Positions 3,740-25,470 of a stretch of DNA of 64,000 bases are shown here, in pieces. Below the pieces are notes generated by a model. That model had not been told where the DNA came from. It made no database searches and saw only the letters and a program-made list of their open reading frames with translations. The DNA comes from Chromohalobacter marismortui (lineage in GTDB: Bacteria; Pseudomonadota; Gammaproteobacteria; Pseudomonadales; Halomonadaceae), in contig NZ_SOBR01000003.1 of NCBI RefSeq assembly GCF_004364315.1, positions 186,001 through 250,000 on the forward strand, in the 5' to 3' direction. Every line of letters starts with the position of its first letter. Within the stretch, counting starts at the first letter, position 1. The translations under genes and the position numbers were made by a program.

Positions 3740-5464
3740 ATGACTTTCTCACGGCTACCGGAAGACGACGTCGAAGAAGCCGAGCGCATCGCGGCGTTAC
3801 GCCGTCTGGGTATGTACGAGGCGCCTCGGGATGCCGAGCTCGACCGCCTGGCGCACATGATCGGCGAGCTCTTCGAGATCCCCTGCGTGATGATCAACGC
3901 CGTGGATCGCGAGCGTACCTGGTGCCTGGCCCGTTCGAGTGATATCGGCCCACCGCCACGACGTGAAGAGTCCTTCTCGGCCCTCACGGTGGATCATGAC
4001 ATGGCGCTCTTCATTGAGGACGCCCATGCCAGTGACGATTTCCGGGAGCATCCTCTGGTGACCGGCGCTCCGTTTCTGCGCGCCTTTGCCGGCGAAAGGC
4101 TTGTGTCGCTGAATGGCCATGTACTGGGCACACTATGCTTGTTCGATACCCAACCTCATGTCTTCGACAGCCTTTCTCGTCAACGCTTGGCCGATCTCGC
4201 CAGGCTGATCTCATTGCGCCTCAACCAGCGTCAGATCGACGAACAACGCGCGGCCGACGATGCCGTGGTCGAACGCCATACTCGACTGCTCGATCACTTG
4301 CCGGAAGGCATCGTGCTGCTCAATGATCGCCGCCACGTGCATTATGCCAATGCCGCCGCTCAACGGCTCTTGAATGGCAAGGGGCCAAGCGTAGTGGGGA
4401 CAGACTTCAACCGTCTCGTGACACACCCCGAAGGACATTACTTCGCCACAGCGTCTTACACGCAATTGCCGCTTGAGGTCCACGCATTACCCCCCTTTCA
4501 GGGGTTCGAGACGCTTCAACTCGGCGACCGCAGTACATTGGTCAGCACACACAGGGCCTTGCAGCGCTTGCGTAGCCTGGTCGATAGCTGGCCCGACGGC
4601 ATTCTCGTGTGCGATTTTGGAAGATTGCATATCTACGAATGGAATACGGCCGCGCGCCAGCTGATCGATGCGCAGGAGGACGCCATCGAAGGCTCGCGAT
4701 TATCGCAGTGGTTTGTGTCCAGTGATCGACGTGTTTTACAGCGACGCATCCGCCAGGAGCTTGCCGCACAAGGCGACACACTTCGCCAGAATCTGACACT
4801 GCATAACGATACGCCGGTCGAGATTACCCTGGTGCCGATGCGTGACCTCGACGATACCTCGCTGATCGTGGTATTACGCGACCGGCGTCCTTACCTCGAT
4901 CACCTGCGTACGGTGAAGCGTCAGCTCGCCAAGGCCGAGGAAATGATCAGCCAAGATGCGCTGACGGGATTGCTCAACCGGTTCGGCTTCGAGCAAGCCA
5001 TCGAGGAGTTCATGGCCGAGGCGCGGAGTGGAACGCCTTTCGCCTTGATGATCGCGGATATCGATCATTTCAAGGACATCAACGATACCCATGGTCATCA
5101 GCTAGGCGATGAGGCACTGAAAGTGGTTGCCTCGCGTCTGGCCGAACAACTCCGCGACAACGATGCAGTAGCACGCTATGGCGGGGAGGAGTTCTGCATC
5201 CTGATGGCGGTTCCCGACACACGCGTGGTAAAAATCGCCGAGCGCATGCGGCAAGCAGTGGCGGCGACACCGATCATCCTCGACGATGGTCATCAGTTAA
5301 GACTGACGATCAGCATTGGCGCCACCTATTATCAGCCGGAACTGAGCGCAGACGCCATGTTCGAGCGTGCCGACGAGGCACTTTACGAAGCCAAGGAATA
5401 CGGCCGCAACCGGACGGTCATGTTGCAGCCGTTATCCGGCAACAGCATGGATGAGGAAGAATGA
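3740..5464 (+). CDS. GAF-PAS-PAS-GGDEF diguanylate cyclase
   Basis: 574-residue cytoplasmic sensor that should make cyclic di-GMP from two GTP. Residues ~15-165 look like a GAF domain of the type fused to GGDEF proteins (IPCVMINAVDRERTW..., GTLCLFD). Two PAS-like segments follow (~180-270 and ~280-385, each opening with 'LPEGIVLL'/'WPDGILV'). The GGDEF domain spans ~400-565 with intact catalytic motif GGEEF at 481-485, metal-binding Asp in the IADIDHF segment (~440-444) and an RxxD inhibitory site (RDND, 472-475) five residues before GGEEF, so product feedback is expected. No membrane segment is visible. It sits next to the flagellar block and converges on fliA with a 3-bp gap, fitting a role in the motile/sessile switch. 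The signal is unknown. Confidence 0.92.
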   Translation: MTFSRLPEDDVEEAERIAALRRLGMYEAPRDAELDRLAHMIGELFEIPCVMINAVDRERTWCLARSSDIGPPPRREESFSALTVDHDMALFIEDAHASDDFREHPLVTGAPFLRAFAGERLVSLNGHVLGTLCLFDTQPHVFDSLSRQRLADLARLISLRLNQRQIDEQRAADDAVVERHTRLLDHLPEGIVLLNDRRHVHYANAAAQRLLNGKGPSVVGTDFNRLVTHPEGHYFATASYTQLPLEVHALPPFQGFETLQLGDRSTLVSTHRALQRLRSLVDSWPDGILVCDFGRLHIYEWNTAARQLIDAQEDAIEGSRLSQWFVSSDRRVLQRRIRQELAAQGDTLRQNLTLHNDTPVEITLVPMRDLDDTSLIVVLRDRRPYLDHLRTVKRQLAKAEEMISQDALTGLLNRFGFEQAIEEFMAEARSGTPFALMIADIDHFKDINDTHGHQLGDEALKVVASRLAEQLRDNDAVARYGGEEFCILMAVPDTRVVKIAERMRQAVAATPIILDDGHQLRLTISIGATYYQPELSADAMFERADEALYEAKEYGRNRTVMLQPLSGNSMDEEE

Positions 5465-5467
5465 GCC

Positions 5468-6166
5468 TCAAGCCGCGAGCCGTCCCCTGAGACGTGCTAC
5501 GGCCTGGCTGTGCAACTGGCATACCCGCGATTCGCTGACGCCCAGGACGGCGCCGATTTCCTTGAGGTTGAGTTCTTCCTGGTAATAGAGCCCCAGCAAC
5601 AGCTTTTCGCGTTCGGGCAGTTGCTCGATGGCCTCGAGCAGATGCGTGCGCGCATCGCCTTTGAGCAAGGCGTCGTGGGGGGTTGCCGGCGCGGTTTCGC
5701 CCGCCGGTGGCTCGCCCAGCTCGGACACGACCTCATCGAAGCCCATCAGATAGCCATTGTTGGCATCCAGCAGCAATTGATGATACTCGTCGACACGCAT
5801 GTCCAGTGCGCTGGCAATCTCACGCTCGTCCGGCGCACGCCCCAGCGATTGTTCGAGCTTGTGTACTGCCTGATCCAGCGCCCGGACGCTACGCCGTACA
5901 CTGCGCGGCATCCAGTCGCGGCTGCGCAGCTCATCGATCATCGCGCCGCGCACGCGTTGATTGGCGAAGGTGGAAAAACTCGCCCCCTGGGCGGTATCGA
6001 AGCGCTCCAGCGCGTCGAGTAACCCCACCATGCCGGCTTGAATCAAATCATCGAGTTCGACACTGGCCGGTAAGCGTACTTGCAACGCCAGCGCATGACG
6101 CCGCACGAGCGGCATGTACTGCTCCAGCAATGCGCGTTGGTCGATTTTGCCCTGTGCCGTATACAT
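5468..6166 (-). CDS. fliA: Flagellar RNA polymerase sigma factor FliA (sigma-28)
   Basis: 232-residue sigma-70-family factor for late flagellar and chemotaxis genes. Region 2 is clear (LVRRHALAL, DDLIQAGMVGLLDALERFD, FSTFANQRVRGAMIDELR); region 3 follows (VRALDQAVHKLEQ...), and region 4 carries the -35-binding helix-turn-helix (LKEIGAVLGVSESRVCQLHSQAV). Length matches FliA of E. coli and Pseudomonas. The ATG has a GAGG Shine-Dalgarno 8 bp upstream. It is the last gene of the minus-strand block, after flhE, separated by 136 bp that include a short CCCTC-GCGA-GAGGG hairpin (6255-6268), so it may have its own promoter. Candidate target promoters occur before motA and fliD. Confidence 0.97.
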   Translation of the reverse strand: MYTAQGKIDQRALLEQYMPLVRRHALALQVRLPASVELDDLIQAGMVGLLDALERFDTAQGASFSTFANQRVRGAMIDELRSRDWMPRSVRRSVRALDQAVHKLEQSLGRAPDEREIASALDMRVDEYHQLLLDANNGYLMGFDEVVSELGEPPAGETAPATPHDALLKGDARTHLLEAIEQLPEREKLLLGLYYQEELNLKEIGAVLGVSESRVCQLHSQAVARLRGRLAA

Positions 6167-6302: not shown

Positions 6303-6734
6303 TCAGTGGTAATTCACGATCAACTGCAGGTCCTCGATGCGGACGCTGGGCCCCGCTACGCCTATGGAAATGGCACGCCTGAAGCGCAATACGAAGGGCC
6401 CTGCAGCGGATAATCCCTCCAGCGCCCGGGTACCCCCACGCTGGGTCGCCAATTCGATACAACGACGTGGGTGGCATAACCACGCGCGTACTGCGTGCGG
6501 CTCCTGCATGGCATAGCGCCAGGATACCCGCGTGATGCGACCATCGCCGACCAGATCGGCGGCAGGCGGATGCAACGGCTGGGTGCGTTCGTCGCGTCCC
6601 GGCGTCGTCAATAACGGACCTCGCGGCAGCGACACCGCCCAACTGCCGGCATCGGCGGCATGCGCGCTTGAGACCACGCCCGACGCGACACCAAGCGCAG
6701 CCACCACGATCAAAACGCATCGCCAGACGCCCAT
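6303..6734 (-). CDS. flhE: Flagellar protein FlhE, periplasmic
   Basis: 143 residues with a signal peptide (hydrophobic ~5-22, cleavage probably after AHA ~26). The mature part resembles enterobacterial FlhE: a 'TRVSWRY' strand, a two-cysteine segment (LCHPRRCIEL) matching the LCSQSRCVEL segment of Salmonella FlhE, and a C-terminal 'LQLIVNYH' matching the family's VIVNYR end. FlhE is a periplasmic factor tied to the export apparatus and proton leakage through it; its exact job is debated. Its ATG overlaps the preceding gene's stop (TGATG), so it is coupled to the FlhG remnant and flhF, flhA, flhB. In E. coli flhE directly follows flhA; here two genes lie between. Confidence 0.85.
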   Translation of the reverse strand: MGVWRCVLIVVAALGVASGVVSSAHAADAGSWAVSLPRGPLLTTPGRDERTQPLHPPAADLVGDGRITRVSWRYAMQEPHAVRAWLCHPRRCIELATQRGGTRALEGLSAAGPFVLRFRRAISIGVAGPSVRIEDLQLIVNYH

Positions 6735-7168
6735 CAGCGGCGCTCACTCGTAGGACGTGTTTTCGCCAGCCACTCAGCGGGATCCACGACCAGCTCGATC
6801 GCCAGAAAGCGACGCGCCGTCTCCACCAGGTTGTCCAACGGCATATCGCCTGATCCGACCGGATCGCGTATCACCAACAAAGGAGGAAGACGCTCGTGCT
6901 GCGACCACCGCTTGAGCTCGCGATAGGCACGCTGCAGACCTTCCGCTCCCGACGCGACCCAGATCCCCCAGTGCGGCGAAGTGCGCTGGGCGGCATTCAC
7001 CTCACCGACGGCGAGAGGCAATGTCTCCCAGGCTTGCCCACTGAGTGACGCAAGCCGTTCGCAGATGGCCGTCACCGCCTGGGGCGAGGGATGGCCGATC
7101 GTCACCAGGCTTGCCTTGTCGCGCCGTTGACTGGCGTAGGCCCGCAATCCCGCCGCTTGATCGCTCAT
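6734..7168 (-). CDS. FlhG/FleN-like remnant: DQAxxLR motif kept, P-loop lost
   Basis: 144 residues from the ATG at 7168, preferred over a GTG at 7174 because GAGG lies 5 bp before it. It sits directly after flhF (7-bp gap), where FlhG (FleN, a MinD-type ATPase that limits flagellar number) is found in Pseudomonas and Vibrio. Residues 3-9 are DQAAGLR, the FlhG N-terminal motif known to activate FlhF GTPase. After it, where FlhG has its KGGxGKT loop, the sequence reads TIGHPSPQAVTAICERLAS, with no Gly-Lys-Ser/Thr. Later parts (GIWVASGAEGLQRAYRELK, PPLLVIRD) keep a Rossmann-like strand-helix alternation, but the ~280-residue family length is halved. There is no frameshift or stop, and coupling to flhE (TGATG) suggests an expressed, reduced protein. 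The FlhG relationship is inference from motif plus position. Confidence 0.65.
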   Translation of the reverse strand: MSDQAAGLRAYASQRRDKASLVTIGHPSPQAVTAICERLASLSGQAWETLPLAVGEVNAAQRTSPHWGIWVASGAEGLQRAYRELKRWSQHERLPPLLVIRDPVGSGDMPLDNLVETARRFLAIELVVDPAEWLAKTRPTSERR

Positions 7169-7175
7169 CGCCACC

Positions 7176-9344
7176 TCACGATGCCTGCGACAGCGCAGTA
7201 TGCGCCGTCAACAAGTGCATCAATCCATGCAGCAGGGTCTCGGGGCTACGCCGTTTACGTTCGCCTGCAAGGCGTTTAACCAGTGGCCGTGTGTCCACCG
7301 CCCACCCTTCGTCACTGAGTTCCATGCGCAGCGACAAGGCCGCCAATTGTGCCGCCAGATAGACCCGCAATTCACAATCCATCGACGCCCCCAACTGTTG
7401 CCAGGCCGTGCGCATCAAGCGCAGCAGGTCGTCCTGCTCGAGCTGCCGATAAACACAGGCACGCATATCGATCTCCAGCGCATCGCCTCGATGCCCCAGC
7501 CAATGGTACACGCCACGCTGGCGACCGCTTTCGGGATCATGGCTCGTCGCGATCCACAACTGCAGCGCCTCGGTATCGTCTGCGGTCAAGGACACGGGCA
7601 AACACGCGAGCGTCACCCGACGCTCGCGTCCACGCAGGCGGCAGGTATGCTGGCCACAAGACTCGGCCAGGTCGACCACGTCGCCTATCGCCAGACGTTC
7701 ACCGGCATACCAGACACGCTGCTGTACACGCGCACGTGCAAGCCAAGGGCTGCCAGCCTCCTGCAACTGTTGTCTAACCTCGACGTCGGGCATCCGCGCG
7801 AACACATGCCAATGACTGCCCAGATGACGACGCGCCAGGGTCAGGCGTTGCGTATCGGAGGGCGGCCAGCGGTGCAAGGGCCACGCCATCGGTAACACAT
7901 CGCCGTGGGCATCCAGCGGCAACATTGGCGCCATCCAGTCCATCCCCCGCGGCCTGCCGCCGGGCCAGAACAAGCCGGTCGCCTGGGCCTCACGCCATGT
8001 CTTGACCATCGGCGGCGGCGTCAAATGCGACTCGAGCCACGTTTGCTGCATGGCACGCGGCGACTCGCGGTGTCGCCACGCGGCGGCCATTAACGCCATC
8101 CCCGGGACATCTCGCTGCAACGTTTCCATCACTCGCATCAACTGATGGCGCTGGGCCATGAGATCACGCGACAACGCCTGCAAGTCCTGCCCGGCGTCGG
8201 TGGGCCGCAGCATGTCGGTGAGCACGTTCTCATCGAAGGTGAACGGCGAGCCCTGACCAACGGCCAAAGCCTCATCCAATAATGCTGGCGCTTCGGCCAG
8301 GCGGATGTCTTCGGGCACCCGCTGACCATGGGAAACATAATATAGCCGCAAGCCGTGACGCATGACGACATCCAGCGCGGCGCCCAGGCGGGGCGCCTCA
8401 TCCACCTTGGTCAATAGACATCCATACAATGGCGCTCCTGCATCGCGAGAGGCACGCTGATAGGTCTCGGCCACCTCTTCGAGCGTATCGCCATGGCTGG
8501 CCGCGTTCAGCAACAGCAGACGCCGAACCGGGCGACCCGCACCGCCGAGACGCGCAATCTGCCCTGCCACACGCTGATCGCGTTGACTCATGCCGACGGT
8601 ATCGACGATGACCATGCGTTTGCCTTCAAGCGCCGACAGCAAGCCTTCGAGATCGTCTTCATGGTGTACTGCATGGACATCGACGCCCAACAGACGCGCA
8701 TAGATGCGCAACTGCTCATGGGCCCCGATACGATAATCATCGGTGGTCACCAACGCCACGTCCTCGCCACCGAAGCGCATCACGTAGCGTGCGGCGAACT
8801 TGGCGGTGGTCGTGGTCTTGCCTACCCCGGTCGGGCCCACGAGCGCGAACACGCCACCGTCCTCGAGCATCGCCGCCTCGTCATCGAGCACCGCAAGACG
8901 CGTCTCCAATTGGCGCCGCGTCCAGGCCAGCAAACGCGGATCGTCCGCCGCGACATCGCTGAGTTCGTCGGGCAGTGCCGCGAGCATTTCGCGTACCAGG
9001 CGTGCGCTGAAGCCGGCGGTAATCAAGCGCTGACGTAGAACGCCATGCACCCCGGGGCGTGCCCTGCGTGGGCGCGGCGTCTCGGCAATATGCGACATCA
9101 AGAGTTCGCGCATGGCCTGCATTTCGGCATACAGGCGGTCCTGACCCGGTGCAGACGAAGCGGGCGCCGCCACGGGCTCGGCTTGCTCGACTAGCGAAGA
9201 CTGTACCTCGTCGGCCACTGCCACGACCTCGACACCCTCCTCCACGCGTTGATTGGAGAGTATCAGGGCATCGTCCCCCAGCGCGTCTCGCACCTGGCGC
9301 ATTGCCTCGCGGCTGTTGACGCCGAGAAAGCGCATCACGCTCAT
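7176..9344 (-). CDS. flhF: SRP-type GTPase FlhF with long C-terminal extension
   Basis: 722 residues. The N-terminal B domain (~1-95; starts MSVMRFLGVNSREAM) and helical N region (~96-165) precede an SRP-GTPase G domain: P-loop GPTGVGKTTT (170-179), TTDDYRIGAHEQL (~200-212), DTVGM (248-252) and the TKVDEA guanine-specificity motif (312-317). FlhF normally ends soon after this; family members are about 380-480 residues. Here about 350 residues follow (370-722), rich in Trp, Arg and Leu, with no membrane helix or motif I recognise. Known FlhF proteins place polar flagella and recruit early basal-body parts. The ATG overlaps the flhA stop by 4 bp, and the FlhG-like remnant follows. The core call is firm; the tail's function is unknown. 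Confidence 0.95.
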   Translation of the reverse strand: MSVMRFLGVNSREAMRQVRDALGDDALILSNQRVEEGVEVVAVADEVQSSLVEQAEPVAAPASSAPGQDRLYAEMQAMRELLMSHIAETPRPRRARPGVHGVLRQRLITAGFSARLVREMLAALPDELSDVAADDPRLLAWTRRQLETRLAVLDDEAAMLEDGGVFALVGPTGVGKTTTTAKFAARYVMRFGGEDVALVTTDDYRIGAHEQLRIYARLLGVDVHAVHHEDDLEGLLSALEGKRMVIVDTVGMSQRDQRVAGQIARLGGAGRPVRRLLLLNAASHGDTLEEVAETYQRASRDAGAPLYGCLLTKVDEAPRLGAALDVVMRHGLRLYYVSHGQRVPEDIRLAEAPALLDEALAVGQGSPFTFDENVLTDMLRPTDAGQDLQALSRDLMAQRHQLMRVMETLQRDVPGMALMAAAWRHRESPRAMQQTWLESHLTPPPMVKTWREAQATGLFWPGGRPRGMDWMAPMLPLDAHGDVLPMAWPLHRWPPSDTQRLTLARRHLGSHWHVFARMPDVEVRQQLQEAGSPWLARARVQQRVWYAGERLAIGDVVDLAESCGQHTCRLRGRERRVTLACLPVSLTADDTEALQLWIATSHDPESGRQRGVYHWLGHRGDALEIDMRACVYRQLEQDDLLRLMRTAWQQLGASMDCELRVYLAAQLAALSLRMELSDEGWAVDTRPLVKRLAGERKRRSPETLLHGLMHLLTAHTALSQAS

Positions 9345-11425
9345 GAGCGGGCTCCGATATTGGTGGTGACACGCAAGGTGCGGTCATCGGGGATTTCGGC
9401 ATTGGACATCACCACCAGGTGGGTGATGCGGCGGCGCAGGAAGCGGGCCAGCAAGGCACGCAAGCTATGCTGCACGACCAGTACGGCAGGCTCGCCCCGC
9501 CCTTCCTGGCGTTCCACGGCGGCCACCGCCTGTTCCATCAAGGTGTCGGCCAGCCCCGGTTCCAGGCCGCCCCCGTTGCTCAATGCTTGCGTCAGTACCT
9601 GTTCGAGATTGGCCTCCAGGCCGATGACATGCATCTCCTGATTGCCGGGGAACCACTGTTGGGTAATCGAGCGTCCCAGCGCCACACGCACCATGGCGGT
9701 CAGTTCGTTGGGATCGGCCTGCTGTGGCGCATACTCGGCCAGCGTATCGAGGATGGTACGCATATCACGAATCGAGACCTCCTCGGCGAGCAGGTTCTGC
9801 AGGATGCGCTGCATCGCGGTCAGGGTCAGCAGCTTGGGCACCACGTCCTCGACCAGCGCCTTGTTCTCGGCGGCGATCTTATCGAGCAATTGCTGCACTT
9901 CCTGACGACCCAGCATGTCATTGGCGTGTCGATGCAGCAGATGGTTGAGATGCGTGGCCACCACCGTACTCGCATCGACCACGGTATAACCGTACACCTG
10001 AGCACGTTCACGCTGCGCGGCATCGATCCATACAGCAGGCAGGCCGAAGGCCGGGTCGTGGGTCGGCGTGCCCTCCACCTGACCCGACACCTGCCCGGGG
10101 TCGATGGCCAACCACTGGCCGGGATGCGCATCGGCGCGGCCCACTTCCACGCCCTTGAGGGTAATGACGTAGGTCGACGGCCCCAATTCGAGGTTGTCGC
10201 GAATATGTACCACCGGCGGCAGAAAGCCGACATCCTGAGCGAACTTCTTGCGCACGCTCTTGATACGCCCCAGCAACTCACCTTTCTGGCGATGATCGAC
10301 CAGCGGAATCAAGCGGTGGCCGACTTCAAGCCCCAGGGTATCGACCAGTTGCACATCGTCCCAACTGGCGTCGGCCACTTCAGGCTGCGGTGGCGGCGTC
10401 TGCGGGGATGCCTCCGGAGTCGCTTGTTGCTGATTGCGACGCCATATCCACCAGGCCAGCCCCCCCAGCAACGCCGTGAACAGCAAGAAAACCAGATTGG
10501 GCATGCCCGGCACCAGGCCCAGCAGGCCCATGACACCGGCGGCCAGTACCAATACCTGCGGGTTATTGAAGAGCTGGCTGATCAGTTGCTGGCCGACATC
10601 CTGGTCGGTATTGACACGCGAGACGGTGACACCGGCAGCCGTGGAAATCACCAGCGCCGGAATCTGCGCCACCAGACCGTCGCCGATGGTCAACAAGGTA
10701 TAGGTATGGGCCGCCTCGGAAAAACTCAGGCTATGTTGCGCCATGCCGATCGCCAGACCACCGATCAAGTTGATCAGCATGATGACGATGCCGGCAATGG
10801 CATCACCACGCACGAACTTGCTGGCCCCGTCCATGGAACCGTAGAAATCGGCGTCCTGGGAGATTTCTTGGCGCCGCGCTCGAGCTTCCTCATCCCCGAT
10901 CAAACCGGCATTGAGATCGGCGTCGATGGCCATCTGCTTGCCGGGCATGGCATCCAGGGTGAAGCGCGCACCGACTTCAGCGATACGGCCAGCGCCTTTG
11001 GTGATGACCATGAAGTTGATCACCACCAGGATCATGAAGACCACCAGACCGACGGCGAAATTGCCGCCGATCAAGAATTCACCGAACGCCTCGATCACCT
11101 TGCCGGCCGCATCGCCCCCCTCGTGCCCCTCCATCAAGACCACGCGCGTGGAAGCGACGTTGAGTGACAGTCGTAACAGGGTCGTGAAGAGCAAGATCGA
11201 CGGGAAGGCCGCGAAATCGAGCGGTTTCTGCGTGAACATGCTCACCAGCAGTACCATGACCGCCAGGGTGATATTGAAGGTAAAGAGAAGGTCCAGCACG
11301 AACGCCGGCAACGGCAGGATCATCATGCTCAGGATCATGATGATCAAGATGGGTCCGGCCAGAACCTTCATACGGGTGTCGGTAAGCCATTCACGACGCC
11401 CCCATAGCTGACTCAACGCATTCAT
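9341..11425 (-). CDS. flhA: Flagellar type III export gate protein FlhA
   Basis: 694 residues, the usual FlhA length. The N-terminal half has about eight membrane helices separated by the conserved cytoplasmic FHIPEP-type loop (ARFTLDAMPGKQMAIDADL..., ~residues 155-190). A linker rich in Pro, Gln and Ala (~335-350) leads to the soluble C-terminal domain that forms the nonameric ring docking chaperone-substrate complexes, among them FliS-FliC, FliT-FliD and FlgN complexes. The FHIPEP signature makes it unambiguous. It overlaps flhB upstream and flhF downstream by 4 bp each, so flhB-flhA-flhF are translated as one coupled unit. Confidence 0.98.
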   Translation of the reverse strand: MNALSQLWGRREWLTDTRMKVLAGPILIIMILSMMILPLPAFVLDLLFTFNITLAVMVLLVSMFTQKPLDFAAFPSILLFTTLLRLSLNVASTRVVLMEGHEGGDAAGKVIEAFGEFLIGGNFAVGLVVFMILVVINFMVITKGAGRIAEVGARFTLDAMPGKQMAIDADLNAGLIGDEEARARRQEISQDADFYGSMDGASKFVRGDAIAGIVIMLINLIGGLAIGMAQHSLSFSEAAHTYTLLTIGDGLVAQIPALVISTAAGVTVSRVNTDQDVGQQLISQLFNNPQVLVLAAGVMGLLGLVPGMPNLVFLLFTALLGGLAWWIWRRNQQQATPEASPQTPPPQPEVADASWDDVQLVDTLGLEVGHRLIPLVDHRQKGELLGRIKSVRKKFAQDVGFLPPVVHIRDNLELGPSTYVITLKGVEVGRADAHPGQWLAIDPGQVSGQVEGTPTHDPAFGLPAVWIDAAQRERAQVYGYTVVDASTVVATHLNHLLHRHANDMLGRQEVQQLLDKIAAENKALVEDVVPKLLTLTAMQRILQNLLAEEVSIRDMRTILDTLAEYAPQQADPNELTAMVRVALGRSITQQWFPGNQEMHVIGLEANLEQVLTQALSNGGGLEPGLADTLMEQAVAAVERQEGRGEPAVLVVQHSLRALLARFLRRRITHLVVMSNAEIPDDRTLRVTTNIGARS

Positions 11426-12591
11426 GGTGTGTCCTTGGCGTCGGCAACGTTTTGCCGAGACGGATCTAACTCATCGGGCACGGGCAGGTCCTGTGGCGTT
11501 TGCGGCCACTCGCCCCCCTCCTCGCGCACGCGTTTCAAGCGGTAGGCCCAAGCCAGAACCTCCGCCACGGCGGTATAAAGATTCGCAGGCACCTCTTGGT
11601 CGAGGTCCACATGCTGATGCAGCGCACGTGCCAGCGGCGGCGCCTCCAGCAACGGCACACCATGCGCTTCACCGAGTTCGCGAATGCGCGTGGCGACCAT
11701 GTCGGCCCCTTTGGCCACGATGCGCGGCGCTTCCATCTGACTCCCTTCATACTGCAATGCCACGGCGTAATGCGTCGGATTGGTGACGATGACATCCGCG
11801 TCCGGCACCTTGGCCATCATGCGTCGCCGTGCCATGGATTGTTGCTGGGCGCGCATGCGCGCCTTGATCTGAGGATCGCCCTCGGTTTCTTTATGCTCTT
11901 TCTTGATCTCGTCCTGGGACATGCGCAGCTTTTTGGTAAAGCTCCATAACTGAAACGGCACATCGATCAATACCACCACGATGAGCGTCGAGACGGATAA
12001 GGCCAGACACAGGGCGGCGAGATCCATCCCGCGCGCCAATGCTTCGCTCAGCGGCAGGTTCCTCAAGCCGAGAAAATCGCCACGATGCCCCCACAGAAAA
12101 GCCACGGCGACACCCCCCACCAACGTCGACTTGGCCACCGCCTTGCCCAGCTCGGCCAGCACCTGCGAGGAGAACATGCGCTTCAAGCCCTTGAGAGGAT
12201 TGAGCTTGGAGAGCTGTGGCTGCAGGGATTTCGCCGATATCAACCAGCCGCCCAGCATGACCGGCGCGAACAAGGCGACGACGGACACGATGAGAAACAA
12301 CGGCAACAAGGACAACAGCATGTTCTTGCCCAGCGACCAGATATGCGACATCAGTACGGCGGTATCGAACACTTCGCCACGCGAGAAGATGAACGACTGC
12401 TCCATGGCCGCTCCCAAGCTGTCGTAGAGGTGCCCCCCCAACATCCAGAGCGTCGCCACGCCCGACGCCAAGATCATGAAGGTGGTCAGTTCACGCGAGC
12501 GCGCGACCTGTCCGTCCTCCTTCGCCTTCTCGAGACGTCGGGGGGTCGGGTCTTCGGTCTTTTCCTCGTCGCTTTCGCTACCCTCGGCCAT
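11422..12591 (-). CDS. flhB: Flagellar export switch protein FlhB
   Basis: 389-residue inner-membrane component of the flagellar type III export gate that switches substrate class from rod/hook to filament. The N-terminus is the typical 'ESDEEKTEDPTPRRLEKAKEDGQVARSREL' region (opening residues only cited here as TEDPTPRRL), followed by four membrane segments. The C-terminal domain contains the autocleavage motif NPTH in the context VIVTNPTHYAVAL (~residue 270). It leads the flhB-flhA-flhF-flhG'-flhE run. The 199 bp upstream, to the end of cheZ, should hold its class II promoter. A second short gene encoding only the FlhB C-terminal fold lies at 26153-26440. Confidence 0.98.
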   Translation of the reverse strand: MAEGSESDEEKTEDPTPRRLEKAKEDGQVARSRELTTFMILASGVATLWMLGGHLYDSLGAAMEQSFIFSRGEVFDTAVLMSHIWSLGKNMLLSLLPLFLIVSVVALFAPVMLGGWLISAKSLQPQLSKLNPLKGLKRMFSSQVLAELGKAVAKSTLVGGVAVAFLWGHRGDFLGLRNLPLSEALARGMDLAALCLALSVSTLIVVVLIDVPFQLWSFTKKLRMSQDEIKKEHKETEGDPQIKARMRAQQQSMARRRMMAKVPDADVIVTNPTHYAVALQYEGSQMEAPRIVAKGADMVATRIRELGEAHGVPLLEAPPLARALHQHVDLDQEVPANLYTAVAEVLAWAYRLKRVREEGGEWPQTPQDLPVPDELDPSRQNVADAKDTP

Positions 12592-24858: not shown

Positions 24859-25470
24859 TCATCTAGCGACGAGGCGACGTGCGGTCATGACGTCCGGCTC
24901 AGGTGTCGACGCAGGCTGGCGAGGCGGCGTGGTCACGCGATCCTCGGTCTGGCGTTTCTTGCGCGTCTTGCCGGCACGCGATGGCGGCTGGCAGATACCG
25001 CATACGAAGTCGTGATCGGGACTGTGCGCGTGGGCCACGAACCGTCCACCACAACTCGTACAGGCAGAGAGTTGCATCATGCCGCTTTCGAAGAAGCGAA
25101 TCAGCGTCCAGGCGCGCGTCAGCCCCAACACCGGCTCGCTCTCATCGAGACTCACCTGCTCCAGGTAGAGCCTGAAGGCTTTGACGAAAGCCGACATCCG
25201 CTCGCAGTCTCGCGCGTCGAGCAGATTTGCATAAATGTTGTAAAACAACGAGGAGTGGATGTTCGGCATCCAGGTGATGAACCAATCGGTCGAAAACGGC
25301 AACATGCCCTTGGGAGGTGACATGCCACGCACCTCCTTGTACAGCTTGATCAAACGCCCACGACTCAAATCCGTCTCGGTCTCGAGTACCTGTAGACGCG
25401 CCCCGAGATCGATCAATTCGATGGCGAGCTGCACCTGCAGCATTTCGCCCACTAGACTTTTGTCACTCAC
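24859..25470 (-). CDS. flhC: Flagellar master regulator subunit FlhC
   Basis: 203 residues from a GTG at 25470, chosen because GAGGAG lies 7 bp upstream and the protein then starts [12 protein letters not shown] like E. coli FlhC (MSEKSIVQEA). The family core [25 protein letters not shown] and [11 protein letters not shown] are near-identical to E. coli (fragments). A C-terminal Cys4 zinc site is visible: CTSCGG ... CGICQ (~residues 135-160). FlhD4C2 activates class II flagellar promoters. It follows flhD by 11 bp. The tail after the zinc site is basic ([11 protein letters not shown]), possibly aiding DNA contact. Confidence 0.96.

Follow-up and report, generated by a model that had tools for sequence, protein, structure and literature searches.

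FlhF and FlhG determine the place and number of flagella. Already described are FlhG itself, its enhancer helix, and its ATPase. The glutamine of the DQAxxLR motif of FlhG is co-catalytic and completes the FlhF active site (PMC12826062; this and all papers below are cited from excerpts). In peritrichous Bacillus subtilis, an FlhG Q8A variant closely resembles an flhG deletion, a hydrolysis-dead FlhG variant has no discernible effect, and FlhG without its membrane sequence has a modest effect, about 10% fewer hooks (PMC12327844). According to a 2025 review, enteric flagella were acquired from betaproteobacteria, with flhF and flhG either not transferred or soon lost; the same review asks whether such enteric flagellation is regulated or random (PMC12826062).

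We found no description, in the excerpts of the open-access literature available, of an FlhG that lacks the P-loop or is half-size and is kept with FlhF across a family. The locus examined here very likely encodes such a protein. It would represent a natural separation of two FlhG activities, in which the FlhF-activating motif is kept and the ATPase is gone, in agreement with the B. subtilis mutants, and the genomes that carry it are apparent intermediates for the enteric loss of FlhF and FlhG.

A short gene between flhF and flhE

The window, that is, the whole 64,000-nucleotide stretch of Chromohalobacter marismortui DNA that was analyzed, carries on its minus strand the order flhB, flhA, flhF (722 aa), a 144-aa gene, flhE, and fliA (Table 1); flhA and flhB are named from their sequences. 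The 144-aa frame runs from ATG 7168 to 6734. An alternative GTG start at 7174 would give 146 aa, and the ATG is the more likely start, with a GAGG Shine-Dalgarno-like site overlapping the flhF stop. At its other end, the stop of the gene and the start of flhE share one base (TGATG).

The N-terminus of the protein reads (V-A-)M-S-D-Q-A-A-G-L-R, and LVTIGHPSPQAV occupies the place of the FlhG P-loop strand. Searches of the 144-aa protein against Pfam and NCBIfam gave no match near the cut-off. The original prediction had described a gene at the flhG place after flhF that begins SDQAAGLR, and we confirm both its position and its start; the strand, which was not given there, is minus. The ORF and its translation likewise agree with the description of an intact gene of ~144 residues that has GHPSPQA instead of a P-loop. 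Beyond the flagellar genes and convergent to fliA, positions 3740-5464 encode a 574-aa protein that looks by eye like a GAF/PAS diguanylate cyclase.

Table 1. Features of the window, with the full-length FlhG loci of Burkholderiaceae used for comparison
Feature	Position	Strand	Basis
fliA, flagellar sigma factor	5468..6166	-	Pfam/NCBIfam
flhE	6303..6734	-	PF06366, E 6.6e-20
FlhG-derived gene (very likely) without P-loop	6734..7168	-	ORF and alignment with 74 other distinct homologues
Residues 68-132, aligning with the C-terminal half of the FlhG MinD-like domain	6779..6973	-	hhalign
LVTIGHPSPQA, strand 1 and loop at the place of GKGGVGKT in FlhG; Walker A absent	7076..7108	-	Sequence and alignment
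DQAAGLR enhancer-helix motif	7142..7162	-	Sequence; role from PMC12826062 and PMC12327844 (excerpts)
GAGGT, putative Shine-Dalgarno-like site overlapping the flhF stop	7173..7177	-	Sequence
flhF, 722 aa, SRP-type GTPase with long C-terminal extension	7176..9344	-	ORF, Pfam/NCBIfam
FlhF C-terminal extension, main part (about residues 436-722)	7176..8039	-	Aligns with Cupriavidus FlhF extension
flhA	9341..11425	-	ORF and gene order
flhB	11422..12591	-	ORF and gene order
flhC, half of the FlhDC master regulator	24955..25467	-	PF05280, E 3.5e-84; match G000:C3:210955-211467 converted by window offset
Burkholderiaceae full-length FlhG loci	L119:5959-6768, L120:8188-8988, L121:8071-8883, L152

Probable descent from FlhG

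The short protein very likely descends from FlhG, because the sequence evidence adds to the fold, which alone would not decide. Profile-profile comparison by hhalign of the short family (55 rows, 49 distinct, 46 kept) with 28 FlhG sequences (24 canonical and four from Burkholderiaceae) gave P values of 2.2e-4 for the local and 5.2e-8 for the global alignment. With the motif removed on both sides, the local score against FlhG was 35.5 (P 1.2e-4), a value that none of 400 column shuffles of FlhG reached (maximum 27.8, mean 13.2). Seven other flagellar or chemotaxis families used as controls scored at most 16.0 against the motif-less body; cheZ, with one sequence, was left out of this set. The body-only global comparison was weaker (P 0.002), still above 400 of 400 shuffles. 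The match was convincing only with the deeper, DQA-bearing FlhG set, early comparisons with 11 or 12 FlhG sequences having been weak (probability 2.9% and 1.8%). These comparisons with shuffles and control families support the FlhG ancestry put forward in the original prediction.

Single FlhG/FleN sequences matched the family in one register in 13 of 13 cases, with scores of 14.7-27.8. From the same genome, MinD, Mrp, and three ParA-like sequences, each compared singly and not by profile, scored 10.8-14.3 in scattered registers, with a narrow gap to the lowest FlhG/FleN. A MinD derivative was rejected on these lower single-sequence scores and scattered registers. Descent from the FleN of the order was also rejected, as those FleN lack the motif and the FlhF of the order falls outside the long-FlhF group in the tree described below.

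The alignment covers the second half of the FlhG domain, including the helix that follows "SITDAY" and the strand that precedes the C-terminal region. Of the 322 FlhG columns, the local match extends no further than column 249, 14 residues before the end of the window protein; the C-terminal region that bears the FlhG membrane-targeting sequence is absent from the short protein. The DADLGLANxD segment after helix 1, a defining feature of FlhG, has no counterpart in the short-family alignment. With neither this segment nor the C-terminal region nor a Walker A loop, the short protein is not classed here as an FlhG ATPase.

Among 229 genomes of the class, the family profile gave nine matches at E <= 0.1 outside its own genome (best 7.6e-4). 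Full-length FlhG accounts for five of these, of which four match by way of the motif region and one (L108) by way of the body; at L106 there is no readable gene, and L109, L111, and L112 are the remaining three. A profile search of the PDB with 16 family members yielded three weak, unrelated matches (best E 0.0056), the first 22 residues had no match in the PDB, and BLASTP between a Cupriavidus FlhG and the Litchfieldella protein found the motif alone in common.

We also compared predicted structures. The model of the window protein is weak (pLDDT 61), and its motif helix at residues 6-15 is predicted at low confidence. Foldseek placed succinyl-CoA ligases first for this model and FlhG/FleN at ranks 12, 17, 22, 30, 32, and 48, none significant; no FlhG was among the best 50 VIA-align rows, at the top of which were cobalamin and receiver domains. 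The model of a relative from Litchfieldella anticariensis has a mean pLDDT of 84 and a pTM of 0.72, with the body mostly above 90, and is predicted to form a helix at residues 6-16 followed by five strands with helices between them. For this model, Foldseek ranked flavodoxins first, FleN at 14 and 22, and FlhG at 27 and 50. Nothing reached E <= 0.001 in Foldseek for either model. In VIA-align of the L. anticariensis model, run over the 1000 chains ranked highest by Foldseek, the top row was FlhG 4rz3, with Z 8.2 and an rmsd of 4.5 over 128 residues (model 38-171 on chain 21-234), and FlhG 4rz2 was third; rows within 1 Z count as tied, and receiver domains lie within 1 Z of FlhG. A fold without relation to MinD, which the original prediction had named as evidence against itself, is thus not what the relative's model gives, FlhG being at the top in a tie with receiver domains.

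Could the protein instead be a small alpha/beta protein without relation to FlhG that gained a DQAxxLR helix? The lack of a significant Pfam, NCBIfam, or PDB sequence match for the window protein and the many generic alpha/beta folds returned by Foldseek are compatible with such an origin. We consider it very improbable in view of the body-only profile match to FlhG that no shuffle equaled, the register consistent with FlhG/FleN and not with MinD/ParA, the exact flhG position, the first place of FlhG in VIA-align for the relative's model, and the full-length, P-loop-degenerate FlhG proteins of Burkholderiaceae.

A separate full-length flhG elsewhere in the genome had likewise been named as contrary evidence, and the profile search of the genome found none: the best match to the full-FlhG profile is MinD. 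Six proteins of this genome match PF10609; from their sequences, we take them to be Mrp, MinD, three ParA-like proteins, and one Wzc-like protein. Strong matches to the full-FlhG profile (E <= 1e-40) occurred in 15 of 21 other genomes of the order and in none of 37 family genomes, where the best value was 6.1e-24. Two Azotobacter and three pseudomonad genomes have a separate full FleN besides the short gene, and the FleN of A. vinelandii is unlinked to flagellar genes (PMC2885672).

Conservation and co-occurrence with long FlhF

A homologue search with the window protein matched 21 of 58 genomes, its own included. All 10 genomes of the genus carry the gene, the nine others at 76-87% identity and with open frames, and ten matches in other genera of the family have the N-terminal motif and are preceded by flhF. 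One candidate (L021) was rejected as a chance match, antisense within an outer-membrane efflux gene. The mean dN/dS over 45 within-genus pairs is 0.082. Given this value and the conserved motif gene across loci, the short gene is maintained under strong purifying selection and is not decaying, so that the term "relic" used in the original prediction is not borne out. A decaying, functionless flhG pseudogene would account for the loss of the P-loop and about half of the length, and for a frameshift in one genome (G532); such decay is scarcely credible beside the low dN/dS, the frame open in 10 of 10 genus genomes, and 75 distinct intact homologues. G532, a 93% complete genome, has frameshifts in flhF as well as in the short gene (L178, G532:C1:723896-726120), owing to either an assembly error or a recent loss.

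A scan of the contig collection gave 42 named loci. Short-gene Halomonadaceae include Litchfieldella, Aidingimonas, Modicisalibacter, Billgrantia, Franzmannia, and Onishia; outside the halomonads, the gene is found in Azotobacter vinelandii, A. chroococcum, Pseudomonas linyingensis, P. sagittaria, Stutzerimonas stutzeri K1, and Pseudidiomarina salinarum. In these Azotobacter, Pseudomonas/Stutzerimonas, and Pseudidiomarina loci (L067, L069, L078, L101, L103, L092), it accompanies a long-FlhF cassette.

Across 75 distinct homologues, six of the seven motif columns (D, Q, A, G, L, and R) are invariant, and the Walker A loop is absent from all 75 aligned proteins; L087, which lacks its N-terminus at a cut contig, was excluded from this alignment. 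On average, the majority residue accounts for a fraction of 0.98 in the motif vs 0.50 in the body, where W49, L116, and L128 are invariant. The 75 of 75 motif count arises partly by choice, because the contig scan pattern included DQAAGLR[RE]W and the locus pattern was DQ[AS]..[LMIV]R. A fairer count comes from 36 loci chosen by long FlhF alone (L028-L041, L154-L175): a DQAxGLR gene directly follows flhF in 33 (33 of 33 genes), and flhE directly follows it in the other three, so no gene at the place after flhF lacks the motif. The flhF at eight loci missed by the motif pattern was identified by phmmer. At L188 and L189, a second match to the motif pattern ~1.7 kb downstream, in another gene, was discarded as chance.

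We then surveyed the family for co-occurrence with FlhF. FlhF was present at E <= 1e-30 in 125 of 151 family genomes, 109 with a long form and 16 with a short one, the latter comprising one fragment and frames of 424-477 aa. In 84 genomes, each of them with long FlhF, the short protein was detected by the family profile, and the coordinates place its gene next to flhF. The other 25 long-FlhF genomes comprise 22 with a divergent DQAxGLR frame right after flhF and three with flhE there. Overall, the short gene stands beside flhF in 106 of 109 long-FlhF genomes, in 0 of 16 short-FlhF genomes, and in 0 of 26 FlhF-less genomes, the zeros in the last set resting on a profile that missed 22 divergent genes. 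The 22 belong to two genera in which the body is too divergent for the profile and the motif is kept. The proposal that the gene evolved together with an extended FlhF therefore holds for co-occurrence; it probably does not hold for timing, as the extension probably predates the halving of FlhG (see below).

The remaining genomes show what stands at this position otherwise. In the short-FlhF genomes, fliA follows flhF with no motif gene between them at 15 of 15 positions read (L042-L047, L181-L189; the sixteenth, G484, was left out), and the full-FlhG profile found nothing elsewhere in the six short-FlhF halomonads searched. The short-FlhF halomonads have FlhF without FlhG. One genus (L041, L174, and L175 in G015, G434, and G448) has a divergent long FlhF (~30% identical) followed by flhE, with no short gene in three of three genomes; an FlhF of this kind can thus do without the short gene. 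Five FlhF-less genomes with FlhC were read over 40 kb around flhC. We located flhA in four of them and not in G025; it is followed by flhE (G011, G024), by fliA (G021), or by nothing recognized (G026), with no motif gene. These four (L191, L192, L194, and L198 in G011, G021, G024, and G026) have FlhC and flhB-flhA without flhF and the short gene. Enteric bacteria have a similar flhB-flhA arrangement without flhF.

FlhC was detected in 24 of 24 long-FlhF, 0 of 6 short-FlhF, and 5 of 7 FlhF-less genomes of a smaller family set, and the flagellar system that accompanies long FlhF is therefore of the FlhDC type. Both A. vinelandii and Chromohalobacter are peritrichous, and the flagellar genes of A. 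vinelandii most closely resemble their counterparts in Chromohalobacter salexigens and Cupriavidus necator (PMC2885672). In a genome of the same genus (G009:C1:211783-213982), the FlhC match falls in two pieces ~1.65 kb apart, and its flhC may be interrupted.

Probable order of loss, proposed function, and known systems

The main part of the FlhF C-terminal extension had no Pfam match, and a search of 229 genomes of the class gave only two weak matches outside its own genome. The halomonad extension (40 of 58 halomonad-type rows, of which hhalign kept 30) aligned with two Cupriavidus rows over 327 columns (P 1.4e-4, probability 52%). Because the Cupriavidus extension aligns by profile, the extension may be a conserved domain. 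FlhF of Burkholderia glumae has no extension.

In the plasmid collection, the FlhF proteins closest to that of the window belong to Burkholderiaceae, with 49-54% identity in the GTPase part. The FlhG of the four Burkholderiaceae records is full length (about 267-271 aa), keeps DQAExLRR, and has a degenerate P-loop from which the lysines are lost. That of B. glumae pBGF2 reads GGPVGVGCTS, vs GGKGGVGKT, and those of three Cupriavidus proteins read GCEAGAGTTT, AADAGAGATT, and GAEQGVGTTT. Canonical FlhG of the class has GKGGVGK in 24 of 24 sequences extracted from 30 loci.

A tree of the FlhF GTPase part, built from 53 of 113 rows chosen partly at random, unites halomonad-long, pseudomonad-long, Pseudidiomarina, and Burkholderiaceae FlhF in one group (support 97/96), which also holds the class member L108, whose FlhG P-loop is intact, and the divergent G015 at its base. 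The FlhF rows with the short gene form one group (99/98), and these with Burkholderiaceae FlhF reach 93/92, just below the mark of the tool; short halomonad FlhF lies elsewhere. The nesting of Azotobacter, Pseudomonas, and Pseudidiomarina FlhF among halomonads suggests horizontal transfer.

The full-length FlhG of Burkholderiaceae with its degenerate P-loop is likely an intermediate. Cupriavidus pairs an extended FlhF with such an FlhG, and judging from these sequences the extension is probably older than the halving. The simplest order places P-loop decay and FlhF extension first and halving later; the tree does not prove this order. Flagella of B. glumae are FlhDC-controlled and polar (PMC3885665), so peritrichous flagella are not the only setting of P-loop decay. 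We give roughly even weight for and against a stepwise dismantling of FlhG, in which the ATPase dies, the protein is halved, it disappears next to a divergent long FlhF, and finally flhF and the short gene are both gone. With the same evenly divided confidence, Burkholderiaceae would represent the ATPase-dead, full-length stage, and halomonads, Azotobacter, some Pseudomonas, and Pseudidiomarina the halved stage; FlhDC-bearing halomonads left with flhB-flhA-flhE-fliA could, on an equally balanced view, be the end state. If true, these bacteria are living intermediates towards the enteric state free of FlhF and FlhG, and FlhF activation is the last FlhG function to be lost.

As for function, we think there is a good probability that the short protein is a dedicated, ATP-independent activator of the FlhF GTPase in an FlhDC-type flagellar system. 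We infer ATP-free activation because the protein keeps the part of FlhG whose loss matters in B. subtilis. In the proposed mechanism, the DQAxGLR helix would dock on the GTP-bound FlhF homodimer, and glutamine Q6 would complete the FlhF active site, so that GTP is hydrolyzed and FlhF leaves the dimer state. Without ATP-driven dimerization or membrane binding, the protein would act as a plain, unswitched activator that sets the turnover of FlhF in multiflagellated cells, in which there would be no further need to count flagella by means of ATP. A scaffolding role would fall to the body, whose partner may be the FlhF extension or the C-ring.

The invariance of W49, L116, and L128 suggests that the stub is kept folded, perhaps holding the helix near FlhF, and it also leaves room for another role of the body. 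An FlhG-derived protein whose body does most of the work, for instance by linking the FlhF extension to the C-ring as an adaptor, and for which GTPase activation is secondary, would fit these residues, the confident fold of the body in the L. anticariensis relative, the co-occurrence of the short gene with extended FlhF, and the binding of FlhG to FliM or FliY (PMC12826062). We regard it as unlikely, since conservation is much higher in the motif than in the body, and the motif stays in the two genera (22 genomes) whose body escapes the family profile. As the favored FlhF activator, the short protein would be a minimal natural one for structural and synthetic work.

Among known systems, the short protein is most readily set beside FlhG/FleN/YlxH, the MinD-like ATPase, with which it shares the position after flhF, an N-terminal DQAxxLR motif, and a body that aligns with the second half of the domain; unlike these proteins, it has no Walker A or C-terminal region, a shortened core, and about half the length. 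The FlhG of Burkholderiaceae (Cupriavidus and B. glumae pBGF2) resembles it in following an flhF of the same clade, in its DQAExLRR motif, and in its degenerate P-loop, and differs in being full length. The Pseudomonas-type FleN of the order is alike in gene position and MinD-like domain but shows the reverse combination, with the P-loop intact in 11 of 11 proteins read and no DQAxxLR; Pseudomonas FleN is also described as lacking this motif in the excerpt available (PMC12713375). By function only, the short protein would recall the SRP RNA acting on Ffh/FtsY, which, although RNA and not protein, is likewise a small non-ATPase part that completes the active site of an SRP-type GTPase (PMC12826062).
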